DNA of 36,394 bases from a virus. The stretch is taken from positions 1 through 36,394 of the IMG/VR virus record IMGVR_UViG_3300032249_000754; one strand, given 5' to 3'. The notes under the pieces are model-generated. The model was given only the letters and a program-made list of their open reading frames with translations, did no database searches and had not been told where the DNA came from. Below are positions 6,516-18,519 of the stretch, piece by piece. A program made the position numbers and the translations under genes. Each line of letters opens with the position of its first letter. Position 1 is the first letter of the stretch.

Positions 6516-8399
6516 ATGAATGTTTTTACACTTCTGATTGATGTTGATGCTAAACAGCTTTTAGCAAATCGCTTTGGCGGAACCTCAACCCTTCCAAGAT
6601 TAGACCGAGGCGATGCGCCTAATTTTGAAATAGGCTTTCTTAAATACAATGGCATTGAATACGATTATTTAAACTTTCAAAACTCGGCAATAAAGTTTGG
6701 AATTGGGGTTAATGCGGCTACTCCCACAGATGGAGAATTTAAGTTAACCTTTAATGGAGTAACATCATCAGCCATCAGCTATAATGCCTCTGCGGCCTCT
6801 GTCCAAACAGCGATTGCCAATGCAATTTCGGCCTCAGTCACAACGGTTGCAGGGGTCAATTCTGCTTATCAAATTACAGCAACAACGGCAGGGGTTTTTG
6901 CAGGGACAACGGCTGGACTTGGCGGGGACTCCTTTTCCCTATATCCGGCATCTTCTGTTATCATCAACACGACAAGGAGCGCAACAGCCGGGGTTGCTTT
7001 AAGGCAAATTGTCCGCCTTGTTCAAAGCCCCGCAGTATTTCAAGATGTTTGGGCAAACTCCCAAACCACTGGCGGCGCAACTCTTTCACTTGCACAGCAG
7101 GGATCAGCGATACAAAGTGAGACATATTCCCTAGAAATTGATGACAATGTTTATGCGGGTCAATACAACCTTCTTTTCGGCAATCAGACCGCTGGAATTG
7201 CCTACAATGCCACCGCCGAACAAATACAGACAGAGCTTGCCAAGCTAACATCTATCGGCGAATACTTAGATGTAAGCGGGGTCAGCCAGCCCAATGTTAG
7301 GGTTTCTGGCGCAAATGGGAAATTTGGTATTGCCTTTGTTGGAAACCTATCACAGATAAACATTGCCACGGCATTTCTTGTAAATGACTCTGCATTGTTC
7401 CGCCCGCCGTATAAAACAGCTACGGTAACTTTCAATACGGCACAGATTGAGAACTTTCTAAACTCTGGAGTTACCGGGTTAAGTTTAGAGATTGAAATAT
7501 CGGACGGAGGAAAGCCTCAAACAGTCCTCTCAACCGCAGTAACATTTAATCAAAACGCCCTTATTGTTACTGGCTCTGCGGTTCCAGCCAACCAAGCGGC
7601 TTACCTAACGGCAACTGAAATTGCGGCTCAATATGTAGAGGATTCAACAGCTAATGTGGATGCCACAAATAGAAGGCTAAAAAACTCAAGCGGAACAACC
7701 GTTGTTGATTACGAGCAGTCGTTGTTCGGCAATGGTGCGCTTGATCTTTCTGGCTCCGGGGTCACAATTTCTTCATACCCGCTTTATGTTAATTCAACAT
7801 TGACCGTTGGCGGGGCTGTTAGTTTTGGCAAGAATCTTTATGTTAATTCAACATTGACCGTTGGCGGGGATGTTAGTTTTGGCAAGAATCTTTATGTTGC
7901 CACAGCCATTACTGCGGTTGGAGCGGTTAGCTTTGGGGGCGGGATGGCCGTCTCTGGGAATTTGGGATTCTTTGGAACCTCCCCAACAGCACAAGGCTCT
8001 GGGATAAATATAGCCAACTCCATAACAAAAAGCGGCATTATCTCGTTCACGCAACCAACCCAAGCCAATGTGGTTTCAAATATTATTTCCCTTGGCCTAA
8101 TTGCATCGTCTCCTACTTATGGAGTGTTGCCGCAATCTCCAAGGACTCTCACGGCAATAACTTATATCACATTTGGACTAGTTCCATCCAATAATGTTAT
8201 TTCTAAAACAGTTACAATTACTGGATGCCAACTGAATGACATTGTTTTGCTTGGGTTGCCCGCTGATGTTGAGGAAGGACTTTCTTTTAGTGGTCACGTT
8301 GTTAATGCTAATCAAATTCATATTGATGCCCTAAATGTGACTGGAAGTGGAAAGACACAAAACGCAACAACATTCAGAGTCACCGTCATAGGCTATTAA
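6516..8399 (+). CDS. Tail fibre / baseplate protein with internal repeats, 627 aa
   Basis: The N-terminal part (residues 1-55) starts MNVFTLLIDVDAKQLLANRF. Two copies of a module follow, in which a strand (FKLTFNGVTSSAISYNAS at about 73; YNLLFGNQTAGIAYNAT at about 213) leads into a helix (AASVQTAIANA; AEQIQTELAKL). I know this module from phage fibre and host-recognition proteins. Residues about 420-475 hold three 18-residue repeats (LYVNSTLTVGGAVSFGKN), encoded by a 54-bp tandem repeat. The C-terminus is beta-rich. It is likely a structural fibre component at the tail tip. Confidence 0.6.
   Translation: MNVFTLLIDVDAKQLLANRFGGTSTLPRLDRGDAPNFEIGFLKYNGIEYDYLNFQNSAIKFGIGVNAATPTDGEFKLTFNGVTSSAISYNASAASVQTAIANAISASVTTVAGVNSAYQITATTAGVFAGTTAGLGGDSFSLYPASSVIINTTRSATAGVALRQIVRLVQSPAVFQDVWANSQTTGGATLSLAQQGSAIQSETYSLEIDDNVYAGQYNLLFGNQTAGIAYNATAEQIQTELAKLTSIGEYLDVSGVSQPNVRVSGANGKFGIAFVGNLSQINIATAFLVNDSALFRPPYKTATVTFNTAQIENFLNSGVTGLSLEIEISDGGKPQTVLSTAVTFNQNALIVTGSAVPANQAAYLTATEIAAQYVEDSTANVDATNRRLKNSSGTTVVDYEQSLFGNGALDLSGSGVTISSYPLYVNSTLTVGGAVSFGKNLYVNSTLTVGGDVSFGKNLYVATAITAVGAVSFGGGMAVSGNLGFFGTSPTAQGSGINIANSITKSGIISFTQPTQANVVSNIISLGLIASSPTYGVLPQSPRTLTAITYITFGLVPSNNVISKTVTITGCQLNDIVLLGLPADVEEGLSFSGHVVNANQIHIDALNVTGSGKTQNATTFRVTVIGY
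7782..7943 (+). repeat. 54-bp tandem repeat (3 units) in fibre gene
   Basis: Units start at 7782, 7836 and 7890. The first two differ at a single base (c at 7816, a at 7870); the third is diverged. The period is in frame (18 codons) and encodes Y-V-x(10)-G-x-V-S-F-G-x-x. Near identity of units 1 and 2 implies a recent duplication. Confidence 0.9.
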
Positions 8400-15654: not shown

Positions 15655-15860
15655 GCGTTAAAAGGCTTACTTACTTAAAGCAGTTGCTTCGTTATACAAC
15701 AGCAAGGCTCAAAGACATGAGGAAGGACTGGACTCATGCCCAAGAAAAAAACTACAAGGACATCCTAGCCCACGCAGACTTGGCCGAGGTTATGGCAAAG
15801 GAGCTTTTGGATCGAGCCAAGAAATACCAGAAGCGTGACTTAGAGAGCGGTAAAAAGTGA
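15651..15860 (+). CDS. Small basic helical protein, 69 aa
   Basis: The Lys/Arg-rich product begins MSVKRLTYLKQLLRYTTARL and is predicted to be two or three helices. Overlaps of 4 bases on both sides (ATGA and GTGA) place it in one translational unit with the initiator gene. Not recognised. Confidence 0.45.
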   Translation: MSVKRLTYLKQLLRYTTARLKDMRKDWTHAQEKNYKDILAHADLAEVMAKELLDRAKKYQKRDLESGKK

Positions 15861-16603
15861 AGTTGCCTTGGCTTAAATTCTATCCGGCTGATTGGCTTTC
15901 GGATGAAGCCCTTCGTGGTTGTTCCCCGGCGGCTAGAGGGCTTTGGGTCGATATGATTTGCCTCATGGCAAAGTCCAAAAGGCATGGCTATCTTATGGCT
16001 GGGGATAGCCCAATGGGGGCAGAGCATATCGCTAGAATCTTCGGAGAAAGTCTTGAAACGACCAGCGGCTTGCTTGTTGAGTTGGCACAAGCTGGGGTCT
16101 ATTCAGTTGAGGAAGATTGCATATTTTCACGCAGAATGGTGAAAGATGAGCGTGGCCGTAAGTCTAATAGGGAAAAGGTTTTACGCTGGCGTAACCATCA
16201 TGTAACCGACATGAAACCATTTTGTAACCAAAATGTAACCCCTCAGAGGCTAGAGGCTAGAGGCCAGAGGCTAGATATAAAGAAAGAGAGGGCGCAAGTG
16301 CGCCCAACGCTTTCGCAATGGTCGGAATACGCAAAGAGCATCGGATGGACTGGCAAAGATGTTCAAGGAGCATTCGATCATTACGAAAGCAACGGATGGA
16401 AGGTCGGAGGCCGTGCTCCTGTTAAGGATTGGCAAGCCGCCGCAAGGAATTGTTTCAGAAGAAACCAAACCACAAACCAGAAAGGGAACCACACAATGCA
16501 ACCAAAACCGCAACCGAAATCATCGTGCGAGTCTGCTCCGCTCTATCGGCGGATGGGCTTTGCCTCATACTACGATTGGCAGAAAGCGGGGTTCCCATCG
16601 TGA
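15857..16603 (+). CDS. Replication initiator, lambda O / DnaT-like organisation
   Basis: GTG 15857 opens a 248-residue protein. Residues 3-110 match the N-terminal domain of many phage replication proteins (WLKFYPADWLSDEALRGCSP, then ARGLWVDMICLM), a winged-helix DNA-binding type. Residues 112-140 are a low-complexity linker whose DNA carries iterons. Residues about 150-195 (WSEYAKSIGWTGKDVQGAFD, then GGRAPVKDWQAAARNC) match the C-terminal helicase-recruiting domain of primosomal proteins. It probably binds the origin inside its own gene and loads the host helicase. No helicase or loader gene is seen nearby. Confidence 0.65.
   Translation: MKLPWLKFYPADWLSDEALRGCSPAARGLWVDMICLMAKSKRHGYLMAGDSPMGAEHIARIFGESLETTSGLLVELAQAGVYSVEEDCIFSRRMVKDERGRKSNREKVLRWRNHHVTDMKPFCNQNVTPQRLEARGQRLDIKKERAQVRPTLSQWSEYAKSIGWTGKDVQGAFDHYESNGWKVGGRAPVKDWQAAARNCFRRNQTTNQKGNHTMQPKPQPKSSCESAPLYRRMGFASYYDWQKAGFPS
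16191..16290 (+). other. Candidate replication origin (iterons within initiator gene)
   Basis: GTAACC occurs at 16191, 16202, 16224 and 16235, with GAAACC at 16213. That makes five units at exactly 11-bp spacing, so all lie on one face of the helix. A 7-bp tandem repeat (AGAGGCT at 16245, 16252, 16259 with one change, and 16266) follows, then an AT/purine-rich stretch at 16272-16290. An 11-bp period is not a multiple of three and the encoded peptide does not repeat, so the DNA itself appears selected. Lambda places its origin the same way inside gene O. Confidence 0.65.
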
Positions 16604-17163
16604 GCCTACTTAAATCATTTGAAAGAACTGTGGATCGTGGTTTTGTGCCATATCGCAAAATCCAACCCGAATACAAATCGCTGGCCGATCAAGCAATGGA
16701 ATTTGAAAAGGGGGTCACTATGCCAAAGCGAATCCAAGAGATTGAGGAACGGATCAATAGCATTGAATTGAGCCTTCAGATTATGCGGAACGCCAAGGAA
16801 GCAGACCCGGTGAAAGCCTACCTTGCACCGCTTTGCTCCAGAATAGGCCAAATTGAAGCGCATTTGGGCCTAGAAAGGGCCAAGACCGCCGAACCGATAG
16901 ACTTGCCACAAATCATCGTTCCGCACGAATTAAGGGTTTTAAGGGGCAAATTTGGAAAGTGCAAGAATCGCAAGGTTGAAGTCGTCCAGAAGCGTTGGGC
17001 ATTGTGGAAGGCTCAATACGAGGCCGGAATCCCAATGACGGTTATCGCTAGGGCTTGGGGTTGCGACCATGCCTCAATCTGCCACGCCAAAAAGCAGGGA
17101 TGGGAGCCAAGCAAACAAGCTAGGCACAACTACCCGAACAAAAGAAAGTCGGCAAAAAAATGA
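16600..17163 (+). CDS. Protein with DnaA domain IV-like C-terminus, 187 aa
   Basis: GTG 16600 overlaps the initiator stop (GTGA); the frame is open further up to 16429, but this lies inside the initiator gene. The middle is a helical coiled-coil (RIQEIEERINSIELSLQIMR). Residues about 135-170 read IPMTVIARAWGCDHASICHA, very close to the DnaA box-binding signature (x-I-G-x-A-F-G-G-R-D-H-T-T-V-L-H-A). There is no AAA+ domain. It probably binds DNA near the origin, as a DnaA mimic or competitor; that role is inferred. Confidence 0.55.
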   Translation: MSLLKSFERTVDRGFVPYRKIQPEYKSLADQAMEFEKGVTMPKRIQEIEERINSIELSLQIMRNAKEADPVKAYLAPLCSRIGQIEAHLGLERAKTAEPIDLPQIIVPHELRVLRGKFGKCKNRKVEVVQKRWALWKAQYEAGIPMTVIARAWGCDHASICHAKKQGWEPSKQARHNYPNKRKSAKK

Positions 17164-17485: not shown

Positions 17486-17791
17486 ATGGAGACCGCTCCC
17501 ATCGAGTCCGACCAGTTAAGAGCCGAAAGGCTCTTGTTGGAGCTATGCCCGGACAACTCCGAGCTTAAAAAGATCACGAAGGGCGGACGATCACAGGAGC
17601 GGATCAAGATGCTTCGGCAAGTCATCGAAAGGCTATTGCTCAACGGCATACCAACGGCGGTCATCGCCAAGACGCTAAAGATGGAACAGCCTGTCGTTCA
17701 GTATCACGCAAGATGGTTGGAAAAACACGGTCGGGTAAGCCGCCATAGCAAGTTCGCTCATTGGGTTTGGGCAAAAGGAACGGATGAATGA
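17486..17791 (+). CDS. Putative HTH regulator, 101 aa
   Basis: The product begins METAPIESDQLRAERLLLEL. Its helix-turn-helix-like core (LRQVIERLLLNGIPTAVIAK, then TLKMEQPVVQYHARWLEKHG) has the T-x-x-I-A-x-x-L-x-x-x-x-x-x-V-x-x-H-x-x-x-L pattern of small transcription regulators. It overlaps the methyltransferase start by 8 bases, so the two are coexpressed. Target unknown. Confidence 0.5.
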   Translation: METAPIESDQLRAERLLLELCPDNSELKKITKGGRSQERIKMLRQVIERLLLNGIPTAVIAKTLKMEQPVVQYHARWLEKHGRVSRHSKFAHWVWAKGTDE

Positions 17792-18519
17792 GCAACCAAC
17801 CCACCTCGATTTGTTCAGCGGTATCGGAGGATTTGCTCTTGCCGCTGGATGGGCTGGATTTGAAACCATTGGATTCTGTGAAATCGAACCATACTGCCAA
17901 GCCGTTCTTAAAAAGCATTGGCCGCAAGTCCCAATTCACACGGACATCAGAGAACTGCGGGGGGGGGGCAAAGAATCGATTTACTTACAGGGGGCTTTCC
18001 TTGCCAGCCATTCAGTTATTGCGGGAAGCGAAGAGGCAAAAATGATCACCGCAATCTCTGGCCGGAAATGTTGCGAATTATTAAAGAGCAAAGGCCGCTT
18101 GGGTCATTGGCGAAAATGTTGCTGGAATCATCAATATGGAACTCGACCAAGTGCATTCTGATTTGGAGTCCGAGGGTTACTCCGTGCAAACGCTACTTAT
18201 TCCAGCTTGTGCCGTTGGCGCAATCCACAGAAGAAACCGAGCATGGATTATTGCCAACAACAACAACATCGGAATGGAGAGGGGCGGCGAAGCAAAGATA
18301 TTTGGGGTCAAAAAAATACAGAGGAACAAAAATGGTGGAGGCTTTAAGGAACTCTGCGGAATGCCCCCAATATCTACACCCAGAATTTTCAGAGCTTGCG
18401 ATGGGGTTCCCGGATGGGTGGACAGACTTAAAGGATTGGGCAACGCCATCGTCCCGCAAGTCGCATACCAAATCATCAAAGGCATCAAAGAAGTGATGGA
18501 GCAATCCGATGAGAATTGA
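17784..18519 (+). pseudogene. C5 cytosine DNA methyltransferase, broken across three frames
   Basis: Frame A (from ATG 17784) has motif I, HLDLFSGIGGFALAAGWAGF, and GFCEIEPYCQ. After a run of ten G (17959-17968) homology continues in frame B with the catalytic motif IV GGFPCQPFS and LWPEMLRIIKEQRP. From about 18094, frame C has ENV (motif VI), AVGAIHRRNRAWIIA (motif VIII) and GLGNAIVPQVAYQII (motif X). Each break is explained by one missing base (a G in the run; one base near 18096). It may be a decayed gene, a phase-variable tract, or sequencing error. Frame B also runs on to 18496 with methyltransferase-like text. Confidence 0.7.

Follow-up and report, generated by a model that had tools for sequence, protein, structure and literature searches.

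Does a run of evenly spaced repeats inside an initiator-like gene mark the replication origin of the phage that carries it? The window analyzed here, i.e. the whole 36,394-nucleotide stretch of viral DNA, contains five helically phased iterons in the order GTAACC/GTAACC/GAAACC/GTAACC/GTAACC, at exact 11-bp steps, about one turn of DNA each (Table 1). The letters of the array are GTAACCATCAT GTAACCGACAT GAAACCATTTT GTAACCAAAAT GTAACC, and the sequence and coordinates reported in a preliminary description of this DNA proved exact. The whole window was scanned for five phased 6-bp units at any period of 9 to 14 bp. The iteron array was the best phased repeat, with a score of 29/30 versus 24 for the runner-up and a maximum of 25 in 12 Markov simulations of the window. 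The three-unit pattern of the array was matched three times, for an expectation of 0.00 (100 shuffles). Thus, the array stands far above chance.

Table 1. Features of the initiator-like gene and its surroundings (positions in the window).
Feature	Position	Strand	Basis or remarks
Initiator-like gene, 248 aa, GTG start	15857-16603	+	ORF; PHROG and Pfam matches; 28 close relatives
Predicted winged-helix domain, residues 8-93	15878-16135	+	AlphaFold2, pLDDT mostly >90
Predicted long basic helix, residues 92-114	16130-16198	+	AlphaFold2; end overlaps first iteron
Divergent patch versus L002 (helix end, iterons, 7-bp array)	16175-16300 (approximate)	+	Comparison of near-identical genes
Five iterons (GTAACC x4, GAAACC x1)	16191-16240; starts 16191, 16202, 16213, 16224, 16235	+	Period 11 bp
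7-bp tandem array, consensus AGAGGCT, 4.4 copies	16245-16275	+	TRF
Short A/G-rich tract between 7-bp array and hairpin	16276-16289	+	Sequence; in most relatives
Inverted repeat GGGCGC-AAGT-GCGCCC	16290-16305	.	Sequence comparison
Predicted small C-terminal helical domain, residues 152-206	16310-16474	+	AlphaFold2; region common to many phage proteins (phrog_15768)
Overlapping downstream gene, coiled coil and C-terminal HTH	16600-17163	+	Model and fold comparison; conserved beside initiator

The peptide encoded by the iteron array (RNHHVTDMKPFCNQNVTPQ) is non-repeating. Among 19 relatives with GTAA-class iterons, zero diversity was observed at unit positions T, G, A, and A of the pattern TG.AA. 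In the family of the window, successive units are read in different phases of the gene, and each core base thereby meets all three codon positions. Diversity at first codon positions was 0.000 in the core versus 0.355 in the spacers, and diversity at third positions was 0.187 in the core versus 0.382 elsewhere in the gene. In the same 19 sequences, the spacers between iterons were free to vary at every codon position, with changes in the peptide. A non-repeating peptide combined with a core frozen at all codon positions indicates, at the level of sequence diversity, that the iteron DNA itself is under selection, as the preliminary description had proposed. Among relatives, the core word switches jointly in all copies (GTAACC, GTAACG, GTAATG, GTCACG, or GTCCAG). 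The close relatives that were read through the region retain the repeats and their 11-bp register, the repeats being degenerate in the divergent relative L024. In relatives with six copies, the single extra unit is 12 bp rather than 11 bp, and the reading frame is therefore kept.

The iterons are one part of a three-part element also comprising a 7-bp array and an inverted repeat, which follow the iterons in this order and were both missed by the earlier description. The 7-bp word changes jointly in all copies, to AGAGGTT (L286), AGAGGTA (L281), AGAGTCC (L304), or AGAAGCC (L277), and the period stays at 7 in a comparison of relatives that leaves out L024 and L303. In L024 (positions 1993-2733), the short array is built on an 8-bp word (AGAGGATC) instead of a 7-bp word. 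AGAGGCT has a G+C content of 4/7, and the array lacks the A/T-richness typical of a classic unwinding element. A literature search limited to open-licence papers returned no match to the 7-bp word or its peptide. The A/G-rich tract that follows is a possible melting site. In the inverted repeat, several relatives have A-T instead of G-C as the third pair, both arms being altered, a compensatory change that concerns one base pair and few events; this pair is broken in L286 and L289, and the repeat is imperfect in a few relatives. Relatives L222-L229 and L306-L323, which have a different N-domain, contain other phased repeats, 6-bp A/T-rich repeats that replace the 7-bp array, and, mostly, a related inverted repeat. 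In L222 and L306-L323, poly-Asn linkers are encoded by 6-bp AATAAC or AATAGT repeats at the place of the 7-bp array of the window.

The recurrence of this layout was assessed by scanning viral contigs for three AGARGCY units, which provided a sample of at least 101 distinct arrays with usable flanks. Among the matches listed, 80 of the 101 distinct arrays were located inside genes encoding the initiator N-domain, and 37 of these 80, again among the matches listed, were outside the set of sequences behind the N-domain profile. The other 21 of the 101 arrays listed (e.g. L106, L110, and L190) were in genes lacking the initiator N-domain, some of them outside any ORF. A non-redundant set of 36 initiators (<60% identity) was drawn from the matches listed, the loci being picked by the 7-bp array, not by iterons or hairpins. 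Significant phased repeats were detected in the 75 bp upstream of the 7-bp array in 18 of the 36 initiators (17 at 11 or 12 bp), the other half having none by the method used, versus 1/36 and 1/36 in control segments of the same genes. Hairpins were detected in the 45 bp downstream of the array in 12 of the 36 (controls, 1/36 and 1/36). Sequence comparison thus indicates that the iteron, 7-bp array, and hairpin layout is general and found in unrelated initiator genes.

These data bear on the possibility that the repeats are functionless, slippage-prone DNA homogenized by recombination and tolerated in a disordered linker. The element does sit in the part of the gene that encodes the linker from the DNA-binding to the C-terminal domain. 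This linker, modeled by AlphaFold2 over the repeats with low confidence, is probably disordered, and words switch together within an array as they do under concerted evolution. However, the period of 11 persists while the spacers diverge, the core is frozen at every codon position, and arrays of 11 or 12 bp occupy the same place in unrelated genes, versus 1/36 in controls. We consider such an absence of function highly improbable.

An isolated phage, the Pseudanabaena cyanophage Pam1, displays the same order of parts. Its gene 56 encodes a homologous protein (40% over 131 aa) and contains 12-bp repeats (CCTAATAGG), units reading AGAAGCC, and an inverted repeat, CAATTAC-TAAC-GTAATTG. The iterons of Pam1 differ by their 12-bp length and by their sequence. 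Gene 56 adjoins a replicative helicase gene, whereas none turned up in the scanned ORFs of the window. In the Rac prophage of E. coli, the ydaU gene (DUF1376; L195:6120-6977) contains ATGTTCAAACA-like repeats spaced by 33, 33, and 12 bp, followed by an A/T-rich stretch and an inverted repeat formed by a C-run and a G-run. Rac carries an active origin, oriJ (PMC3945230), and ydaU is a candidate location for it based on these motifs.

The product of the gene matched the replisome organizer of PHROG with E = 0.0032 and, with E = 0.0012 but 19.2 bits for a cut-off of 23.3, Pfam Phage_rep_org_N; the latter family was also matched at E ≤ 0.01 by 6 of 51 relatives. The predicted winged-helix domain resembled the DNA-binding domains of CRP and NtcA (VIA Z of 8-9), a range in which common folds also score. 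The N-terminal domains of plasmid Rep proteins (4pql and 5kbj) were tied with CRP and NtcA, at Z of 8.1-8.3, and aligned over a longer stretch (79-81 residues). Foldseek additionally returned weak matches to DnaD and to the initiator of a multidrug-resistance plasmid. Pfam RepA_N was absent among the matches listed for the protein and its relatives, and when solved structures were searched with the sequence of the initiator, matches were at chance level only. The C-terminal domain is a candidate for the recruitment of the replisome. Neither helicase, loader, primase, nor polymerase genes were seen among the window ORFs scanned, a subset of the total, and the phage therefore probably replicates with the host machinery. 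The genome contigs searched with a related protein contained three loci, too few for placement of hosts.

The downstream gene overlaps the stop codon of the initiator gene, and its homologs were found beside the initiator in 108 records, some contigs being counted twice. A DnaA-like DNA-binding end had been attributed to its product. Pfam Bac_DnaA_C had no match in the window and matched weakly 4 of 36 homologs (best E of 0.013), versus 17 of 36 for HTH_23. In fold comparisons of the C-terminal HTH, DnaA domain IV chains ranked 1, 2, 3, and 7, with Z of 5.2-6.0, tied with ParB, KorB, and other HTH proteins. Likeness to DnaA is possible in view of these weak sequence and model matches.

Two other features of the window were observed. 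A gene for a C5 cytosine methylase (17784-18519) is apparently divided between two ORFs that overlap in different frames and correspond to positions 4-54 and 123-168 of Pfam DNA_methylase; it is absent from L002 and L003, where the sequences flanking it at 17787 and 18506 adjoin. A 54-bp tandem repeat (2.2 to 2.9 copies; 7782-7936) is located inside a 627-aa ORF that has no Pfam match.

The location of a replication origin inside the initiator gene, suggested in the preliminary description, is supported by the sequence anatomy, conservation, controls, and analogues; GC skew gave no signal, as no turning point was present at the iteron site. The iterons could alternatively be operators through which the protein represses or times its own operon from inside the gene, replication starting elsewhere, and a winged-helix protein with a predicted CRP/NtcA-like fold could act as such a regulator. 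However, the position deep in the gene, the second array and downstream hairpin, and the occurrence of the same layout in many initiator-type genes are better suited to an origin, and the window contains no other comparable phased array. Regulation of this kind appears improbable. We favor, with a probability of about 0.8, a reading in which the element is the intragenic origin of the phage itself, bound by the winged-helix initiator, opened and loaded as described below, and exchanged as a cassette; this assignment of function draws on sequence and on analogy.

According to the proposed mechanism, initiator monomers would use the winged-helix domain to bind every TGTAAC-type unit, all from one face of the DNA helix. 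Bound initiators would assemble side by side and strain the DNA, leading to opening of the 7-bp array and adjacent A/G-rich tract. The C-terminal domain would then recruit the helicase and replisome of the host. The hairpin may end the opened region or, alternatively, aid loading or priming on single-stranded DNA.

Known systems offer parallels for this scheme. In phage lambda, iterons are located in the middle of the initiator gene O, beside the region that opens (PMC7466680), and phased repeats are also located inside the initiator gene here. The lambda O-like character attributed to the gene holds for this analogy but not for family membership, since the Pfam lambda O model, Phage_rep_O (PF04492), matched nothing in the window at E ≤ 10 and Phage_rep_org_N remained below its cut-off. 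In addition, ori-lambda combines inverted-repeat iterons of about 19 bp with an adjoining A/T-rich tract, in contrast to the 11-bp direct repeats and 7-bp array found here, where the only comparable tract is short, A/G-rich, and located after the 7-bp array instead of directly beside the iterons.

The Rep protein of plasmid pSK41 (RepA_N) comprises a winged-helix N-domain and a C-domain for contact with the replisome, with four Rep boxes in the center of rep and an origin that encodes a dispensable linker (PMC5703833). The initiator of the window may resemble pSK41 Rep in the predicted fold of its N-domain and in its central repeats, which are putative binding sites. It differs by the lack of a sequence match to the RepA_N family, and the passages considered mention no 7-bp array for pSK41. 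For plasmid pPR9, an exchange of about 500 bp spanning the N-domain and origin has been reported (PMC5703833); that swap takes in the N-domain, whereas the patch detected here spares the winged-helix domain. In PLE satellites, the initiator domain of RepA and the origin co-vary and are exchanged, the changes in the origin providing escape from an origin-directed nuclease (PMC8263062). The proposed origin similarly varies and is probably exchanged here, but that of PLE is outside the gene and has semi-palindromic iterons of about 30 bp. The parallels with lambda O, pSK41/pPR9, and PLE make the proposed mechanism one of a known kind. The present case departs from them in its 7-bp module, in a hairpin whose place is fixed, and in how short the exchanged patch is; of these, the module and the patch are new here.

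Evidence for exchange came from comparison of the window with L002. Identity was 96-100% up to base 318 of the gene and, from about base 460 onward, 94-98%. In the divergent patch, 26 of 124 positions differed, in addition to a 12-bp insertion, versus 19 of 621 over the remainder of the gene. The bounds of the patch were chosen after the divergence had been seen, and the Fisher values (8.6e-11 and 1.4e-6) are therefore descriptive. Over the 7 kb compared, identity was mostly high and dropped in other patches too, indicating that the genomes are mosaics and that the patch is not unique; no other such patch is inside the initiator gene. L025 is also a mosaic, with a gene body similar to that of the window and a cassette similar to that of L009. 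In a tree based on the first 290 bases of the gene, the iteron type changed at least 11 times, and supported branches forced two origins each for GTAACC and GTCACG and three for GTAATG. A patch of about 125 bp differing between otherwise near-identical genes looks like the exchange of an origin cassette, and short-cassette recombination is the simplest reading of this sequence pattern. The end of the helix, the iterons, and the 7-bp array would be swapped together between related phages, which may alter the match between initiator and origin.

Whether exchange alters specificity depends on how the types are recognized. The window, L002, and L025 share their first ~105 residues, including an identical predicted DNA-binding domain, despite having three iteron types (GTAACC, GTAACG, and GTAATG). 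The types may therefore result from neutral drift and recombination, all of them being bound equally by one winged-helix domain, and bases 5 and 6 of the iteron may not be contacted. Drift accounts less readily for type switches that recur and involve whole arrays. Helix residues 107-112, which were chosen after looking at the data, agreed with iteron base 3 in 44 of 45 rows, an agreement that amounts to about three independent events, is not significant (sign test, p = 0.5), and at least partly reflects co-inheritance; the helix end and the first iteron adjoin on the DNA. Weighed solely against exchange of specificity, neutral drift has, in our opinion, slightly less than an even chance of being correct.

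The intragenic origin proposed here may belong to a widespread class that combines iterons, a 7-bp array acting as a shared module for opening or helicase loading, and a hairpin inside the initiator gene. In this class, specificity would be switched by exchange of a cassette of about 125 bp (end of the helix, iterons, and 7-bp array) with conservation of the winged-helix domain, perhaps allowing escape from origin-targeting parasites or competing phages, a generalization that we regard as possible rather than likely. The layout provides a signature at the sequence level by which origins can be sought in phages that lack experimental data, and the 7-bp module becomes directly testable. The window and L002, with initiator genes that hardly differ apart from the cassette, form a natural pair suited to the study of changes in initiator-origin specificity.
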